Of a DNA stretch of 64,000 nucleotides, positions 459-23,356 are shown piece after piece; position 1 is the first letter of the stretch, and every line of letters starts with the position of its first letter. The translations under genes and the position numbers were made by a program. The notes beneath the pieces are model-generated. The model searched no databases. It saw only the letters and a program-made list of their open reading frames with translations, and had not been told where the DNA came from. The stretch spans positions 1 to 64,000 of IMG/VR virus record IMGVR_UViG_3300046007_002820. The stretch is one strand, 5' to 3'. The stretch comes from a virus.

Positions 459-490
459 ACAGCCTTCGGAGAAATTCGGAGGCTGTTTTT
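459..490 (+). terminator. Rho-independent terminator with GAAA tetraloop
   Basis: ACAGCCTTCGGA (459-470) pairs with TTCGGAGGCTGT (475-486), giving a 12-bp stem with two G-U pairs closed by a GAAA tetraloop and followed by a T run (486-490). It ends the SPFH transcript. The next late promoter begins inside the T run, so one transcript ends where the next starts. Confidence 0.9.
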
Positions 491-516
491 CTAAATATGA
501 CTGAGCTATAGAAAGA
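486..516 (+). promoter_or_regulatory. Late promoter CTAAATA with possible RBS-covering inverted repeat
   Basis: CTAAATA is at 491-497, 25 bp before the ATG of the next gene. The stretch 486-493 can pair with 509-516 (8 bp, one G-U), which contains the weak ribosome site AGAAAGA. The pairing is AT-rich and marginal alone; it gains weight because the same layout recurs at other late genes in this window. Confidence 0.6.
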
Positions 517-521
517 TAACA

Positions 522-3290
522 ATGCCTGATACTTCTCTTCTAGATCAAGTCAAACAAATTCTTTACGGATCTGGAGCAAATCCTCCACTCATCGATCAAA
601 TCACGAAGATGATGTTCGGCTACGATTCTACAACTACGGCGACGGGTAAATCTCCGGACGAAGTCAATCTGAATCCGAAACTCGACGATATGATGGGATA
701 TACTGCCGAGCAAATCGAATTGATGGAAATCTTCGACAGTCGGCCGGATTATAAGCATGTTGGTACGCGTGAACTTCTATCCAGCACGCAACACAATTAT
801 CAGTTTAATCATGGTGAACATAGATACGGTGTAACGATTAGTCACCACGAGGCTACGCCTAATCATGCCGAAGTAACTTTTTATAAGCACACACAACGTG
901 GCCCGACAATGGCGATGCAACATGACGACGACGGGCAGGCGCATAAGATTGTTGGTAAAGTCATACATATCGTTCGCGATCATGTCAAGAAACATAAACT
1001 GAAATCTATAGGATTTGGTAGCGATACGAGAGATAAAGGTCGCACAAAACTCTATAAAAGTCTAGCTAGAAAGCATGGTGGATCTTCTTGGTTTGGTGGA
1101 TCGTCACATCGTATTCCAGTAAACGAATCCTACGAGATTCAACAACTCAACGAACTGTTCGACACTCCTGTGAAATATACTACGGGTGAACACCACCATC
1201 CAGAAAATGGGGATCATCATTATGTATTTCATCATAAAAGTAAATCAGTTCATGTGAATATTGAACATTCCGAAGAGGACGAAGATACCGCGAAAGTAGA
1301 ATTTTATAAAAAAACGCATTCTGGAAAGCATATATATTCTCAAACTGGCGATCATCCACAAGACGCTCACAAAATTCTGAGTGGTGTCCATCATATCGTA
1401 AAAGATCACGTTGCGAAATATCCAGAAATCAAACATATTAGATTTACTGGATCAGGACACTCCAGAGAAAAACTTTACGATAGAATTTCTCGAAAGCATA
1501 AAGGACGATCATCCAGAGATGTGTTAGATACAAACTACGAAATACCTGTTAATCAACATCACGAGCATGTAGCATTCACATTTGGACGATTCTCAGTTCC
1601 GTCAAAAGGTCATTCGAAACTCTTTGAGAAACTCAAGGAAGAAGCGGGAACTGGTCCTCACTACGTCTTCGCAAGTCATACGCAGGATTCTGAACGCAAT
1701 CCGCTTTCGTGGAATACGAAGGTTTCCATCATGGAGCAATGCTGGCCAGATCTAAACATCTGTCAGGAGACGAATGTCAAGACGCTTTTCCAAGCTATCA
1801 GCCTACTAGAATCTGAAGGCTTCAAGAGCGCTACGCTCGTAGTTGGTCAAGACCGCTACGCAGAGTTCTCGAAGCTTCTAGAGACCTATCAAAAAGACTA
1901 CTCGATGACTATTGGAATTGTCGCAGTTCCCAGAACGAGCGATGACGAATCGGCGACCAAAATGCGCGAAGCGGTCATCAACGAGGATTTCGAGACTTTC
2001 GCAGAAATGTTCCCAGAAGATACCGAGGAAGGTCTTGCTGAATTCGTCTACGATGTCGTCGGCGAGAATTTGAACGAACTGTTCGATAAACCTCACGAAT
2101 ATAAGAAAGACACTGAAAACAGCACTGATTATAGACATATCTATAATTTTCACCATGGCGACGATCATTTCGAAACCAGCATTCATCATCATGCCGGGCC
2201 GAAAAAGGGAACAGCAACAGTAGTATTCAATGATCAACACGGAGAGACTGGTGTGACTGGGAGACACAAAGGTTCTGCACATAAAGTCATCAGCACCGTT
2301 CATCACATTGTGAAAGACCATATTGCGAAACATCCTGAAATCAAACACGTTCGATTCACAGGCGACGGTGATCATGAGAAACTTTACAGTAAAATCACAA
2401 AGAAACGCGGGGGTGTTGAAGGTCCATATACTTGGGGTAAAGAATTCAAAATCCCAGTGAATGAATCGCTTGATGTTCAACAGCTCAACGAACTGTTCGA
2501 CACTCCTGTGGAATACGAGACTGGCAACGAGCATAGAACCCAATATGGCGCGCATCATTACGTGTTTCACCATAAAGGTCGGCCTATTCATGTCAAAATA
2601 GATCATGGTAGTCTCAAAAAACCTACACATGCATCCGTGAGGTTTCATGCAGTAGATGTTAATGGATGGTCGGAATACGAACAAACTCACGATCATCCAA
2701 AAGACGCTCACAAAATTCTGAGCGGAGTTCACCACATTGTGAAAGATCACATCAAAAATCATCCTACTGTGAAACACGTCACATTCTCTGGCGAAGGTGA
2801 ATCTAGAACGAAACTCTACGATAGATTAGCTCGTAAGAATAAAGGTAGATCTAAAAAGCATCCTATCTTCTCCGACGTTAAAAAGTATAGTGTTCCAGTA
2901 AACCGCAATTTGAAAGAAGAAGTTCTGGACATCATGAATGAATCTAAAATAATTCATGAACCGGGTAAGATGACTATTGGGCATGTTTCGGCAACTTTCC
3001 ATCCAAAGTCTCGAGGTGGTGGAGGTGGATGGATCGTTAAAAATCATAGAACGCACGACTGGCACGGCGAGCTTTGGAACAAGAAAGACGCTCGTGATTC
3101 AATGGTAAAAATGTATCATGCTACAAAAAACGACGATTTTATGGAATCTGCCAGGATTCCATCTCCGACTGGACAAAAGCCTGAAGATGAACGCCTCGGT
3201 CTAGACTCTAATCTAGGATCGAAGGACGATGTTCAACTGAGACGTCGGAAGACTATGAAAAGATTCAAGCAAATCATCGATGAAACCTGA
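522..3290 (+). CDS. Giant modular His/Lys-rich protein with embedded nucleotidyltransferase-like domain
   Basis: A 922-residue protein. After about 75 N-terminal residues come four diverged copies of a ~130-residue module (roughly residues 75-205, 207-345, 515-645, 652-800), each with a histidine-rich beta part, a conserved AHKI(L/V)..VHHIVKDH helix and a K-L-Y basic end. Between copies 2 and 3, residues ~346-515 look like a nucleotidyltransferase fold: FTFGRFSVPSKGH matches the GRFxPxxxGH signature of cytidylyl/adenylyltransferases and SATKMREA matches the later S-x-T-K-M-R motif. Modules open with LNELFD(T/K)P, an (L/I)xE-type sequence. The C-terminus (~805-922) is basic. It follows a late promoter and precedes a related giant gene, so it is probably packaged in or attached to the virion. 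Nucleotidyltransferase activity is not proven; the first His of (H/T)xGH is Ser here. Confidence 0.65.
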   Translation: MPDTSLLDQVKQILYGSGANPPLIDQITKMMFGYDSTTTATGKSPDEVNLNPKLDDMMGYTAEQIELMEIFDSRPDYKHVGTRELLSSTQHNYQFNHGEHRYGVTISHHEATPNHAEVTFYKHTQRGPTMAMQHDDDGQAHKIVGKVIHIVRDHVKKHKLKSIGFGSDTRDKGRTKLYKSLARKHGGSSWFGGSSHRIPVNESYEIQQLNELFDTPVKYTTGEHHHPENGDHHYVFHHKSKSVHVNIEHSEEDEDTAKVEFYKKTHSGKHIYSQTGDHPQDAHKILSGVHHIVKDHVAKYPEIKHIRFTGSGHSREKLYDRISRKHKGRSSRDVLDTNYEIPVNQHHEHVAFTFGRFSVPSKGHSKLFEKLKEEAGTGPHYVFASHTQDSERNPLSWNTKVSIMEQCWPDLNICQETNVKTLFQAISLLESEGFKSATLVVGQDRYAEFSKLLETYQKDYSMTIGIVAVPRTSDDESATKMREAVINEDFETFAEMFPEDTEEGLAEFVYDVVGENLNELFDKPHEYKKDTENSTDYRHIYNFHHGDDHFETSIHHHAGPKKGTATVVFNDQHGETGVTGRHKGSAHKVISTVHHIVKDHIAKHPEIKHVRFTGDGDHEKLYSKITKKRGGVEGPYTWGKEFKIPVNESLDVQQLNELFDTPVEYETGNEHRTQYGAHHYVFHHKGRPIHVKIDHGSLKKPTHASVRFHAVDVNGWSEYEQTHDHPKDAHKILSGVHHIVKDHIKNHPTVKHVTFSGEGESRTKLYDRLARKNKGRSKKHPIFSDVKKYSVPVNRNLKEEVLDIMNESKIIHEPGKMTIGHVSATFHPKSRGGGGGWIVKNHRTHDWHGELWNKKDARDSMVKMYHATKNDDFMESARIPSPTGQKPEDERLGLDSNLGSKDDVQLRRRKTMKRFKQIIDET
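750..2920 (+). repeat. Four dispersed ~130-codon module copies in the giant gene
   Basis: The four modules remain similar at DNA level in places: a ~27-bp identical stretch encoding LNELFDTPV occurs near 1147 and 2487, and near-identical stretches encoding HPxDAHKILSG occur near 1354 and 2695. This points to internal duplication, with the nucleotidyltransferase-like segment (about 1560-2070) lying between copies 2 and 3. Confidence 0.75.
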
Positions 3291-3312
3291 GCTCACAACG
3301 GACCAATTTTTA

Positions 3313-3340
3313 TTCTAAATATATTTGAATTTGTTTAGGA
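3313..3340 (+). promoter_or_regulatory. Late promoter CTAAATA with RBS-covering inverted repeat
   Basis: CTAAATA lies at 3315-3321. TTCTAAA (3313-3319) can pair with TTTAGGA (3334-3340), which carries the Shine-Dalgarno AGGA of the next gene. The 7-bp pairing has one G-U. A transcript starting about 6 nt after the box would lack the 5' arm and leave the site open. Confidence 0.6.
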
Positions 3341-3350
3341 TTTGATTGGA

Positions 3351-6128
3351 ATGGATCTTTCGGAAGCGTTTATCTCGAATTTGAGAAATGTCGCTAATCT
3401 GAAAGATGTTCGCCCGGTCAGATTCGCCGATGGTCACGCGACGACTGTTCCAGCATCAGTTGCTCTCAAGGCTGTTAATCGTTATGATGCAATAAGAAAC
3501 CCTGGGCAGAAAAGAGTAGCTGCCGAGCAAATGAGGTCGTCGTTGTCAAATTTTAAGAAGTCTATTTCGGAAGATAAACAACTCGATGAAATTTCCGACG
3601 AGCTCAAGTTCCGGTATCTTGGAAAGCACAGCGATAAATACGAAAGACATTACGCGTTCAAGCGACATGGTTGGAACGACGACGGCAAACATCCGGTTCC
3701 GAAAGCGTCCAGTGAAAAAGCCGCGCAAAAGACCGGCGAGCATTTCAATCGTAAATGGACGGCACAAGCCGCCGAACACAAACGCCAAGAAGAAGAGCGT
3801 GATCGCAAACCACTAGAGCATGAACCAAAAGTTCACGATCTTCGCCATCTGTCTCATGGTGAAGCCTATAACAGATCTCAGACCGACGATAAAATCAAAG
3901 ACGGCGACGTTCTGCATCTAAAAGGCGGGCATCATGCAATCATGTACAAAGCATGGCCGACCAATGGTCCAGGATCGAATGCAAAAGAACATCACCATCT
4001 CGCAGCTGGCAATTCTTGGCATCACGAGAATATGACCCGTTACCACAAATCCGCGAAGATCGCCGAAGAGGGAGCTAAGAAGCACTTGAAAGAATCCGAA
4101 GAAATCAACGAAATTTCCAAAAATACGCTTGGGCGATATATTTCGCATGCGTCTATGGATAAGTCTCATTCGGCTGAAACGATCGGTTTCGACAACGGGG
4201 AAGGTGTAACTACGGGTAAAAGAACTTACTACAGCCGTAACGAAATCGAAAAAGACCATAAGAAACATGCTCGCCGCTCTGCAGGAATTCAGCATGCGAC
4301 TATGAAACTCATCGGACACGACCCACACAATCCCAAATGGAAAATGAAGCGTCCGGCCACGAACGAAGAACTAGAGATTACTGAAAAGACTAAATTCGAC
4401 GACGATGCTGACGAAAGAGCAGAAGCTGCTCGTCGTAAGAAGCAAGAAAAGTCGAAAGTCCAGAATGCCAATTACCGTCGTAAAGAGAAGTATACGATGG
4501 AAGACTTCGATGCGATGGACGATGACGAGTTCGATTTCGTCGTGGAAAATCTAGAACAACTCGACGAGCTCAGCAAGGCTACGCTTGGTCGGTATGTGAA
4601 TCGTAGTTTGAACGATGTTAGAAACGCTAATCAGTCGAAGATTCGTTGGGAATCGAAACCAAAAGATGATTATTTTGGTCTTGATCCAAAAGGAAATCGC
4701 GTGACTAAAACTTCAGCGGAAATGCAAAAAATTCATTCTAAAAACGCGACAAAAAGAGAAAAAGGTATTAGAACAGCTGTGGCAAAACTTACCAAAGAAT
4801 CTGAAGAAATCAACGAGCTCAGCAAGGCTACGCTCGGTCGATATCTTGATAAATCCGTTCGCCAATCTGTAGAAAAAGCCGAAACTTCCGGGTATCATTC
4901 GGCTCTTAACGATTACAGCCATCAAGTGAAGGCTGATAAAGCCGCAAGAAAAGCAGAAAAAAGGTATGCTGGATCAATGACCGCAATTCAAAAACTCACC
5001 AAAGAAGATTTCGACATCGATGAAATCAACGAGATCATGGATCGCGTAAATGCTGGACTTCAGCTCGACGAGCTCAGCAAGGCTACGCTTTCCAGATACA
5101 TGGATAATGCTAGTGGCGATGCTTGGTCATCTGAAAACAAAGCTGATGCTAAAAAGAATGGTAGTGTCTCACAGCATTACTACCAGAAGCGTGCCGATAA
5201 GAGATATCGCGGATTGGAAAAGGCGGATCGTAAAATGAATGAAGACTTCGACGATAGAGTAGTTCTAGAGCTCATCGAACAATTTATGGCCGAAAATGAT
5301 CTAACGATCAACGAACTTTCGGACGATACTCTGAAATCTTACGTCGGTAAAAGTAATGCTCAACTAACTGCGATGAAATCTAAGCGCGGGCGTAAATCAG
5401 CTGCTGATCTGAAGACTGCAGCAAAGAGAACTGCTGGAGGAACGAAAGCTTCTAAGACTCTCTATGATAGACGCGCTAAAGAATGGGCTAAAGGCGAGAT
5501 CACTTCTCGATCGGCTTATTCCAAAGCTCTGCATGATACTGCCAAAGAGCATGGATATAATCTCGCCCATTCCGGCCGGCATTCGGATATCTATACGAAG
5601 CATGAAGAGCACGATACACATGCAGTGCATCCCGACCGCGAAGGCCAGCTTCAACACAGTATGAAACATTTCCATGATTTGCATGTTCTCAAGATTCATC
5701 ACGGTGGAACCGAAAATCATCCTGAACCAGCGTTCACTCTGTCCAGCGCGAGCGGAACAAGAAGTGACGGTAAACATTATCGGAACTGGAGCAGCACGGG
5801 ATCAGAATCCGAACATTACACAAAGCATAAAAATGAAATCGGTAAGACTTTCGAGCGTCATCACGAGCATGTTAATTCTGCTTGGCATGGTCTTCATGAA
5901 TCCGAAGATATTAACGAAAAGACCAAATTCGATGATGAAGCCGATGATCGTAACGACGCCTACGTGAAAAACCGCGTCGCGCGTAAGTACGCTCAGATGA
6001 GGAAAGCTCGTCGGAAGGAAAAATATGCTACCGAAGAGACCGTGCTTTCTGATGATGCTGTCGCTCAGTTCGGATTCACTCAATCGTTTGCGGATGCTCT
6101 TCTAAAGATCAGTAAACCAAAATCGTAA
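3351..6128 (+). CDS. Second giant modular protein with repeated NELSKATLGRY-type motifs
   Basis: 925 residues from the ATG at 3351, which has AGGA at 3337-3340 at good spacing; an in-frame TTG at 3342 is too close to that site. The protein is highly charged. At least five times it carries a segment of the form (I/L)(N/D)E(L/I)S..TL.(R/S)Y followed by a helix (near nt 4108, 4560, 4810, 5065, 5310), with a looser first copy near 3580. Two further blocks begin (I/N)(T/E)EKTKFDD.AD.R and end in RRKEKY.(M/T)E (near 4380 and 5915). Two His-rich stretches (nt 3600-4080 and 5500-5880) resemble the modules of the previous gene. No enzyme fold is recognised. A packaged, possibly protease-processed internal head protein is the working inference. 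Confidence 0.6.
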   Translation: MDLSEAFISNLRNVANLKDVRPVRFADGHATTVPASVALKAVNRYDAIRNPGQKRVAAEQMRSSLSNFKKSISEDKQLDEISDELKFRYLGKHSDKYERHYAFKRHGWNDDGKHPVPKASSEKAAQKTGEHFNRKWTAQAAEHKRQEEERDRKPLEHEPKVHDLRHLSHGEAYNRSQTDDKIKDGDVLHLKGGHHAIMYKAWPTNGPGSNAKEHHHLAAGNSWHHENMTRYHKSAKIAEEGAKKHLKESEEINEISKNTLGRYISHASMDKSHSAETIGFDNGEGVTTGKRTYYSRNEIEKDHKKHARRSAGIQHATMKLIGHDPHNPKWKMKRPATNEELEITEKTKFDDDADERAEAARRKKQEKSKVQNANYRRKEKYTMEDFDAMDDDEFDFVVENLEQLDELSKATLGRYVNRSLNDVRNANQSKIRWESKPKDDYFGLDPKGNRVTKTSAEMQKIHSKNATKREKGIRTAVAKLTKESEEINELSKATLGRYLDKSVRQSVEKAETSGYHSALNDYSHQVKADKAARKAEKRYAGSMTAIQKLTKEDFDIDEINEIMDRVNAGLQLDELSKATLSRYMDNASGDAWSSENKADAKKNGSVSQHYYQKRADKRYRGLEKADRKMNEDFDDRVVLELIEQFMAENDLTINELSDDTLKSYVGKSNAQLTAMKSKRGRKSAADLKTAAKRTAGGTKASKTLYDRRAKEWAKGEITSRSAYSKALHDTAKEHGYNLAHSGRHSDIYTKHEEHDTHAVHPDREGQLQHSMKHFHDLHVLKIHHGGTENHPEPAFTLSSASGTRSDGKHYRNWSSTGSESEHYTKHKNEIGKTFERHHEHVNSAWHGLHESEDINEKTKFDDEADDRNDAYVKNRVARKYAQMRKARRKEKYATEETVLSDDAVAQFGFTQSFADALLKISKPKS
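3580..5960 (+). repeat. Dispersed LDELSKATLGRY-type coding repeats
   Basis: The DNA gagctcagcaaggctacgct, encoding ELSKATL, recurs exactly or nearly so at about 4567, 4815 and 5070, with more diverged copies near 4110 and 5313. Spacing is irregular (about 170-450 bp), so this is a dispersed module family, not a tandem array. Confidence 0.75.
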
Positions 6129-12028: not shown

Positions 12029-12430
12029 ATGAGTTCAAAAGATAGTCTTCATTCAGATTCGTTCATAGTATATGCAGCGAAAAATTACACGAATCCTGAT
12101 TCTATATCAGATGAAGAATTCTTTGATGATCTAAAGCGTATCAAATATATCAAGCGTCTATTCAGACTCTATGAAGAAACCGGAGAGCTCAAAGAGCGTC
12201 TCATTCTGAATCATCTTCTAGTGTTCTATAACGTGTTCGGTCTAGTTCCGGCGAATCGTATGTTGTTCTTCAGACTCGATTCCAAATACTATCCATATCT
12301 CAAAACCTTTCTGGATTTTCTTGGATATCTACCAAATCGTATAGAAAACATTGGTTTGCCTCCGAAATCTCTAAATATGTGTGAAATAGAACCAGATATC
12401 ACGATTATGCAAAGGCTCAAGAGTATATGA
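12029..12430 (+). CDS. Conserved T4-superfamily late protein (DUF7207-like)
   Basis: 133 residues, mostly helical. The core KYIKRLFRLYEETGELKERL followed by LNHLL.FYNVFG and R.LFF resembles a small protein widely conserved among marine and alphaproteobacterial T4-like phages. Its function is not established. The stop overlaps the ATG of the next gene by 4 bp. The match is from memory of the family pattern; the DUF number should be treated as tentative. Confidence 0.5.
   Translation: MSSKDSLHSDSFIVYAAKNYTNPDSISDEEFFDDLKRIKYIKRLFRLYEETGELKERLILNHLLVFYNVFGLVPANRMLFFRLDSKYYPYLKTFLDFLGYLPNRIENIGLPPKSLNMCEIEPDITIMQRLKSI
12371..12377 (+). promoter_or_regulatory. Possible internal late promoter CTAAATA
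   Basis: CTAAATATG inside the end of the preceding gene, 49 bp before the ATG at 12427. The spacing suits a late promoter for the KOW gene and lysis cassette, but it overlaps coding sequence and could be chance. Confidence 0.35.
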
Positions 12431-12891
12431 AATCATTCAAGAAAATCTCTAATGAACCTTATACTCCGAAGGTCGGCGACCGTGTTCGCATTCGGCGCGG
12501 CGATTACAAAGGTACGCGCGGGAAAGTCACCGAAGTTCATCCGGGTAGGCATGCGACAGTGGATAATGGATTCGGTGGAATTCGTTACCATCACGACGAT
12601 TTGAAACGAATCGACGAAGACCTTCACGAAATGTCTCACGAGAAGCTTCGCCAATACCGTGATGCTGCTCATAAAGATTACATCGACAAGATGAATACCA
12701 ATCGTTCGAAATCTATCAAGAGAGCGGTGTTCAAGCAGAAGGCTGATATCCGTCTGGTTGGTGAAGACGCAGCAGTTCCTACGAACGCTGTCGGATCAGG
12801 GAATATCGCTGGAGCAAATCAAGATCCTCCGGGTAAGAAATTCACTAAATTAAAGGTAGTGAGGCGTCAGCTTCCTAAATCTGGAGTTTAG
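12427..12891 (+). CDS. KOW-domain protein
   Basis: 154 residues. Residues ~14-60 (YTPKVGDRVRIRRGDYKGTR, then GKV..V, later V..GFGG) form a KOW element like those that bind nucleic acid or ribosomal partners. A following segment, DLHEMSHEKLRQYRDAA, is a diverged copy of the NELSKATLGRY motif of the giant protein at 3351-6128. The C-terminus PTNAVGSGNIAGANQDPPG is a recurrent tail in T4-like phage head-region proteins. It overlaps the previous stop by 4 bp. Confidence 0.6.
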   Translation: MKSFKKISNEPYTPKVGDRVRIRRGDYKGTRGKVTEVHPGRHATVDNGFGGIRYHHDDLKRIDEDLHEMSHEKLRQYRDAAHKDYIDKMNTNRSKSIKRAVFKQKADIRLVGEDAAVPTNAVGSGNIAGANQDPPGKKFTKLKVVRRQLPKSGV

Positions 12892-22718: not shown

Positions 22719-22865
22719 ATGAGCTCTTGGAAAGAATGTAATTCCTGCAACGAAGAATATCAGGTCATCGGCGGATCGCTAGATACTCCAGCAGTATTCT
22801 GCCCGTTCTGTGGAACAGTCGTAGAAGATGACGAAGATCTCTTCCCAGAAGAAGATGAAGAATGA
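22719..22865 (+). CDS. Small zinc-ribbon protein
   Basis: 48 residues. Two knuckles, CNSC near residue 7 and CPFC near 30, form a rubredoxin-like zinc ribbon, followed by a very acidic tail (EDDEDLFPEEDEE). The stop overlaps the next ATG by 4 bp. Such small ribbons in phages often act as nucleic-acid or transcription-factor adaptors; no specific role is seen. Confidence 0.65.
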   Translation: MSSWKECNSCNEEYQVIGGSLDTPAVFCPFCGTVVEDDEDLFPEEDEE

Positions 22866-23356
22866 TTCGCCGCTTCGCAGAGATTCTCAAAGAGAGCTCT
22901 GAATCTCCCAAATTCAGACGGGATAATCCCGGTGGTGATTGGCTCAAACATAAGCAAGAAGATGCCAATACCAACTATCATCGAAGAAAAGGTCTGAATG
23001 GAGCTACGACTGGGTATTTCAACAAAAATTTGCATCTCCCAGTATCAAAACTTCACAAACTCCCTGGCGCGATGGATGAACATAAGTTCAGACATGAAGG
23101 TCCGAAAGCAGAGCGTCTAGCGAAACAAATTGGCCATCCGAAGAATTTCAATTCCAAAGACCACCCAATCATGATCGGTGTAAACCATCGTGGCGAGCCT
23201 CATGTTATGGAAGGTAACCATCGACTCGCGTATGCACACAAACATGGAATTTCACATATTCACGCAGAAGTGAAATACTATAACGGCGGCGAAGATCATC
23301 CTCATCTCGGCGATTTCCATCCTCACGAGCTTCTAAAACATCACAAAGATGACTAA
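22862..23356 (+). CDS. ParB/sulfiredoxin-fold-like protein
   Basis: 164 residues. The C-terminal half contains PIMIGVNHRGEPHVMEGNHR, then LAYAHKHGI and AEV.YYNGGED, the pattern of ParB-like nuclease-fold domains (a G-N/E-H-R motif that binds nucleotide). The N-terminal half is basic. It is linked to a resolvase gene by an 8-bp overlap, so a role in DNA handling is plausible. Catalysis is not shown. Confidence 0.6.
   Translation: MIRRFAEILKESSESPKFRRDNPGGDWLKHKQEDANTNYHRRKGLNGATTGYFNKNLHLPVSKLHKLPGAMDEHKFRHEGPKAERLAKQIGHPKNFNSKDHPIMIGVNHRGEPHVMEGNHRLAYAHKHGISHIHAEVKYYNGGEDHPHLGDFHPHELLKHHKDD

Follow-up and report, generated by a model that had tools for sequence, protein, structure and literature searches.

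Two giant modular proteins of an uncultured T4-like phage with prohead-protease-type sites at their module starts

Introduction

The T4 prohead protease gp21 cleaves proteins after L/I-x-E and divides those of the core into multiple fragments (PMC9026906). Its substrates gp22, gp67 and gp68 occupy the prohead core, carry many L/I-x-E sites and yield several fragments. IPI–IPIII and Alt are internal head cargo with a propeptide that gp21 can remove. IPII and IPIII open with MKTYQEFIAE/A (T4 record; a slash marks the end of a protease-type site throughout), and residues 4 and 7 of the capsid-targeting sequence serve targeting, residues 8 and 10 processing (PMC9026906). In phiKZ and SPN3US, a protease related to gp21 cleaves many internal head proteins after x-x-E; the motif is S/A-x-E and the processing mainly propeptide removal, and the published text consulted describes no site-preceded string of similar modules.

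Two further systems bear on the locus. The polyvalent proteins (Iyer et al. 2017) are large phage proteins of several domains for which packaging and delivery have been proposed. A cytidylyltransferase homologous to one of the proteins studied here (T4-GC190) has been detected by mass spectrometry in virions of the cyanophages S-SM1 (PMC3037559), S-CREM2 (PMC10665884) and S-SZBM1 (PMC9146016), in the last together with what the adjoining downstream gene, 139, encodes (PMC9146016). The detections of the cytidylyltransferase consist of few peptides (2-3), and the S-CREM2 authors consider carry-over possible.

Here we describe two genes, P0001 and P0002, in a stretch of 64,000 nucleotides (the window), positions 1 to 64,000 of the 64,324-base record IMGVR_UViG_3300046007_002820 of an uncultured T4-like phage. 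The sequence pattern that they show, protease-type sites at module starts, is real and well supported, and an explanation of the T4 type, in an unusual beads-on-a-string form, is probable. It is likely that P0001 and P0002 are late internal-head or prohead-core polyproteins of a Cr30/cyanophage-like T4-type phage, cut at the module starts by a gp21-type protease.

Results

Both giant proteins that an earlier note had described (922 and 925 residues, 522-6128) are present. P0002 has 928 aa when read from TTG at 3342 and 925 aa from ATG at 3351; its site residues are given in the 928-aa numbering.

522-3290, plus strand: P0001, 922 aa, predicted internal-head protein, cytidylyltransferase-like, into which four DUF6934 modules are inserted (matches to phrog_3041/395 cytidyltransferase and PF22028 DUF6934)
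729-1124, plus strand: DUF6934 module 1, directly after LME (residue 69) of P0001 (alignment and site list)
1155-1544, plus strand: DUF6934 module 2, directly after LNE (residue 211); best PF22028 stretch 231-325 (alignment)
1548-2126, plus strand: cytidylyltransferase-like domain, phrog_3041 E=1.1e-37 (PHROG match over residues 343-535); module 3 starts before this domain ends
2079-2465, plus strand: DUF6934 module 3, directly after LNE (residue 519; alignment and site list)
2493-2906, plus strand: DUF6934 module 4, directly after LNE (residue 657; alignment and site list)
3342-6128, plus strand: P0002, giant modular protein, phrog_5709 E=5.4e-47; Cr30 homologue P0005
3366-3572, plus strand: RFADG-type N-terminal module of P0002, after LSE (residue 8); relatives in Cr30 and other loci
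3591-3743, plus strand: degenerate TLxxY module, after LDE (residue 83); profile match E=0.006
4113-4325, plus strand: TLxxY module, after INE (residue 257); profile match E=4.9e-32
4386-4493, plus strand: FDD module, after ITE (residue 348); repeat of the C-terminal FDD module
4569-4808, plus strand: TLxxY module, after LDE (residue 409); profile match E=6.6e-29; structure model m609212be4963
4818-5009, plus strand: TLxxY module, after INE (residue 492); profile match E=8.5e-26
5073-5246, plus strand: TLxxY module, after LDE (residue 577); profile match E=3.2e-23
5316-5477, plus strand: TLxxY module, after INE (residue 658); profile match E=8.7e-16
5919-6125, plus strand: C-terminal FDD module, after INE (residue 859; site list and sequence)

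In P0001, two DUF6934 modules precede the cytidylyltransferase domain and two follow it. P0002 consists of the N-terminal RFADG module, five clear copies and one degenerate copy of the TLxxY module ([LI]SKxTLGRY ... KRxxGIxxAxxKL), and two FDD modules, which had no further copy in the related loci searched. Among sequenced phages, Caulobacter phage Cr30 is the nearest relative, and the gene order around P0001 and P0002 is conserved in it; its P0001 homologue has 268 aa and no DUF6934 modules, and its cytidylyltransferase domain is 46% identical. The proteins had been called basic and His/Lys-rich, and this holds for the basicity of P0002 (pI 9.1) and the His-richness of P0001 (82 His in 922 residues), but P0001 is neutral (pI 7.1). 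The suggestion that their pieces associate with DNA found no support.

The claim that modules open at (I/L)-x-E-type sites was borne out: all four DUF6934 modules of P0001, and six of six TLxxY and two of two FDD modules of P0002, stand directly after [IL]xE. The DUF6934 modules start at LME/IFD (69) and LNE/LFD (211, 519, 657); the P0002 sites are LDE/IS (83), INE/IS (257), ITE/KT (348), LDE/LS (409), INE/LS (492), LDE/LS (577), INE/LS (658) and INE/KT (859). The excess of [IL][NDE]E over composition-shuffled sequence is strong for P0002 (9 against 1.5 expected; reached by 0 of 1000 shuffles) and moderate for P0001 (5 against 1.3; 8 of 1000). The two proteins rank first and second in this excess among about 60 CDSs of the window, and the remaining CDSs, pooled, hold 32 such sites against 25.3 expected in 16,190 aa.

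The earlier note had also seen a weaker copy of the motif in a further protein:

12427-12891, plus strand: KOW-domain protein (PF00467 KOW) with one weak module-like stretch, IDEDLHE/MSHEKLRQY; membership uncertain

The stretch, RIDEDLHE/MSHEKLRQY, is visible, but a single site is not significant (p ~0.07) and the module profile did not recover it at E<=1. We considered this protein as a third polyprotein and regard it as an uncertain candidate, with one site and no profile support.

DUF6934 modules also occur in relatives, where the boundary count is partly seed-biased. A second, unselected copy at locus L003 lies directly after an LNE/LME-type site, and several copies at L004 have no [IL]xE ahead of them. 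The L004 copies, the weaker site excess of P0001 and its lack of TLxxY modules would all fit a reading in which only P0002 is a core polyprotein and P0001 stays uncut as an enzyme of the virion or of infection, with LNE/LFD as incidental linkers of recently duplicated DUF6934 modules. We consider this rather unlikely, since all four DUF6934 copies in the window and the unselected L003 copy follow LNE or LME, and other phages have the cytidylyltransferase part in their virions. The structure model of the DUF6934 module (pLDDT 66) had GNAT-fold acyltransferases as its top 50 PDB matches with low confidence (TM 0.35-0.49), and its viral matches were often very large phage proteins. Among related loci with DUF6934 proteins, such as L003:5911-10041 and L004:1522-3660, L003 also carries a true GNAT domain. 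A GNAT-like fold is thus a lead given by the model. Among solved structures, a search by sequence turned up no convincing relative of DUF6934 or of the cyanophage cytidylyltransferase.

A search of related loci with the whole of P0002 as query gave no matches. TLxxY patterns were taken from a four-row alignment, the nine-row module alignment being too diverse. Every TLxxY copy in relatives (153/153, a total that takes in modules picked by a pattern containing the motif) lies directly after [ILV]xE, compared with 1.9% of the remaining positions in these proteins. A motif-free profile found 61 copies that were not pattern-selected; in 60 of these, position -1 is E, and the site is [IL]xE in 44 and VxE in almost all others. 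Across TLxxY modules, V replaces I/L at the third position (-3) in about 10%, which is outside the stated T4 motif. The same [IL]xE boundary stands before unrelated kinds of module, namely DUF6934, FDD and the modules of the Cr30 polyprotein, and an x-x-E lies a few residues ahead of the block in 10/10 KSDAPQF modules. The iterated CWPGY, GRPRK and RFADG profiles trimmed module starts or had variable linkers and were not counted as strong evidence. Further small modules, CWKGYxxxGxKKKxGKxVPNC and DACYxKVKSRYxVWPSAYASGALVxCR, recur in large proteins of L002:4819-7272, L113:3838-6858 and other loci.

In the AF2 model, the TLxxY module is a two-helix hairpin whose first helix passes through the site (pLDDT ~59-77). 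We had expected the model to place the site beyond the module fold, but it did not, and the site residues could therefore be structural. On such an account, [ILV]xE would be part of the first helix, or an adapter contact, that travels with the duplicating module, and core or scaffold adapters would stay uncut there. Besides the helix, the joint movement of site and module and the V at -3 agree with it; it is nevertheless unlikely, because the same boundary precedes the unrelated DUF6934, FDD, KSDAPQF and Cr30 modules and the site is of the kind cut by the protease whose substrates come from the neighbouring core genes.

The window encodes T4-type tail and baseplate genes, gp61, nrdA and nrdB; no head gene and no gp21 protease gene lie in this 64-kb fragment, the head cluster being outside it. 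Peptidase_S77 gp21 is encoded in 6/6 relatives' records >100 kb that were tested, and 14 of 15 major capsid proteins from relatives carry LxE where the maturation site is expected. Among 80 loci with TLxxY modules (counted by hand, some loci being near-identical), 40 have the module within the head cluster, either in the interval from portal to gp21 or inside gp22 or adjacent to it, and 37 in the cytidylyltransferase-DUF7207-gp61-nrdA locus, with 3 unplaced. At L014 the module forms one protein with a genuine scaffold (T4_CASP, E=1.3e-60); L047 has two TLxxY proteins at the gp67/68 position; and in the records of L047 and L028 the module occurs elsewhere as well as in the core cluster. The homology of P0002 to known core and scaffold proteins (gp22 and the core proteins between portal and gp21) is at module level only. 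As the same TLxxY module occurs in relatives' gp22 and portal-to-gp21 core proteins, P0002 probably joins the prohead core via its TLxxY modules.

The cyanophage homologues of P0001 open with a sequence like the capsid-targeting one of T4. The N-terminus MKxFxAFLxE/A is found in 80/80 close relatives of the S-SM1 cytidylyltransferase (L117:23757-24920 and L119-L198), which are not independent of each other, and the capsid-targeting pattern fits 1 of 134 S-SM1 CDSs, the cytidylyltransferase itself. Judged by sequence, this IPIII-like N-terminus could explain the published presence of these enzymes in virions; the literature searched gave no paper that ties the capsid-targeting sequence to these cyanophage proteins. 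The pattern MxxFxxF[IL]xE/A is absent from P0001, P0002 and the Cr30 homologue of P0001. The product of S-SZBM1 gene 139 is 45% identical to that of S-SM1 gene 191 over 91 residues.

A late-promoter-like element precedes each of the two genes.

490-497, plus strand: late-promoter-like TCTAAATA, 24 nt 5' of P0001
3314-3321, plus strand: late-promoter-like TCTAAATA, 20 nt 5' of P0002

CTAAATA is the putative late promoter of the T4-like phage Aeh1 (PMC1524935). It occurs 12 times in the window (for example at 491, 3315, 6970, 10388, 12371, 44312 and 45672), and 9 of the 12 lie 20-55 nt 5' of a CDS, two tail genes among them, compared with 4.9% for permuted 7-mers. It is the 7-mer of the window most concentrated just 5' of CDSs and is probably the late promoter of this phage. 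In Cr30, CTAAATA stands ahead of gp22, gp23 and the sheath gene; it is missing directly upstream of the cytidylyltransferase and polyprotein genes of Cr30, and the late-promoter argument is therefore local to the window.

That P0001 and P0002 are unpackaged cytoplasmic infection proteins, metabolic or host-takeover enzymes with repeats, and that the virion detections are carry-over is very improbable: the locus does adjoin the DNA-metabolism genes gp61, nrdA and nrdB, the S-CREM2 authors do allow carry-over and the virion data do come from homologues rather than from the window phage, but such homologues were detected in virions of three cyanophages and have capsid-targeting N-termini, late-promoter-like elements lie 5' of both genes, and the TLxxY module is common to head-core genes.

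Discussion

Packaging in the prohead and processing by a gp21-type protease, as the earlier note had proposed, are partly supported by independent but indirect lines: the TLxxY modules of gp22 and core proteins, the gp21 of relatives, the LxE of their capsid proteins, the cyanophage homologues in virions with their T4-like N-termini, and the late-promoter-like elements. By analogy with T4 we infer core association, cleavage and the fate of the pieces as follows. P0001 and P0002 would be expressed late. P0002 would enter the assembling prohead core via its TLxxY modules, helical hairpins common to scaffold and core proteins, and P0001 would be a cytidylyltransferase-like internal head protein that gained its four DUF6934 modules, possibly GNAT-like, as cassettes. 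A gp21-type protease would then cut after [IL]-x-E at the module starts and release small pieces. Core-type fragments would mostly leave the head, for which T4 is a precedent, and the cargo, that is, the cytidylyltransferase and the DUF6934 modules, may stay in the head and be injected.

P0002 would resemble T4 gp22, gp67 and gp68 in its place in the prohead core and in being cut at many L/I-x-E sites into several fragments, and the TLxxY module is physically part of relatives' gp22 or of proteins at the gp67/68 position. However, P0002 is much larger and basic, is a chain of repeated modules that each have a single site at the start, and is encoded away from the head cluster. IPI–IPIII and Alt are comparable as internal head cargo, and the cyanophage cytidylyltransferases share with them the N-terminus MKxFxxF[IL]xE/A; they are single-domain or single-enzyme proteins with terminal propeptides only, whereas P0001 and P0002 have internal sites and lack that N-terminus. 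The T4-GC190 locus has the homologous enzyme in the same gene order up to gp61-nrdA-nrdB. P0001 differs from that enzyme by its four DUF6934 modules and the missing capsid-targeting N-terminus, and the downstream neighbours share little sequence beyond some modules. With its cytidylyltransferase and DUF6934 modules (modelled as GNAT-like, with low confidence), P0001 may resemble the polyvalent proteins, and at the related locus L003 a GNAT domain lies beside DUF6934, but the chains of P0001 and P0002 have protease-type sites at module starts and most of their modules have no known enzymatic activity.

We tentatively suggest a wider scheme for T4-like phages of water bacteria, although we hold it with more doubt than belief. 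Portable modules, each with its own prohead-protease site, may load swappable cargo into the prohead core, to be freed as many injected polypeptides, and the TLxxY hairpin may be a core-loading tag that replaces the short N-terminal targeting sequence of T4. If the internal-head reading of P0001 and P0002 is true, many a large protein now listed as "hypothetical" in T4-like phages of sea and fresh water would be identified as an internal-head polyprotein, the puzzling virion cytidylyltransferase would have a route into cyanophage heads, and many head or injected peptides could be predicted from sequence alone, giving proteomics groups exact cleavage sites to seek in existing virion spectra.

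Two other places in the window deserve mention. At 110-430, the translation shows by eye the apparent end of an SPFH/band-7-like protein at the window edge. A 164-aa protein at 22862-23356, with relatives in Dolichospermum phage Dfl-JY45 and Bacillus phage G, starts with MIRRFAEILKE/S, which resembles the T4 capsid-targeting N-terminus, and is possibly a further head cargo.
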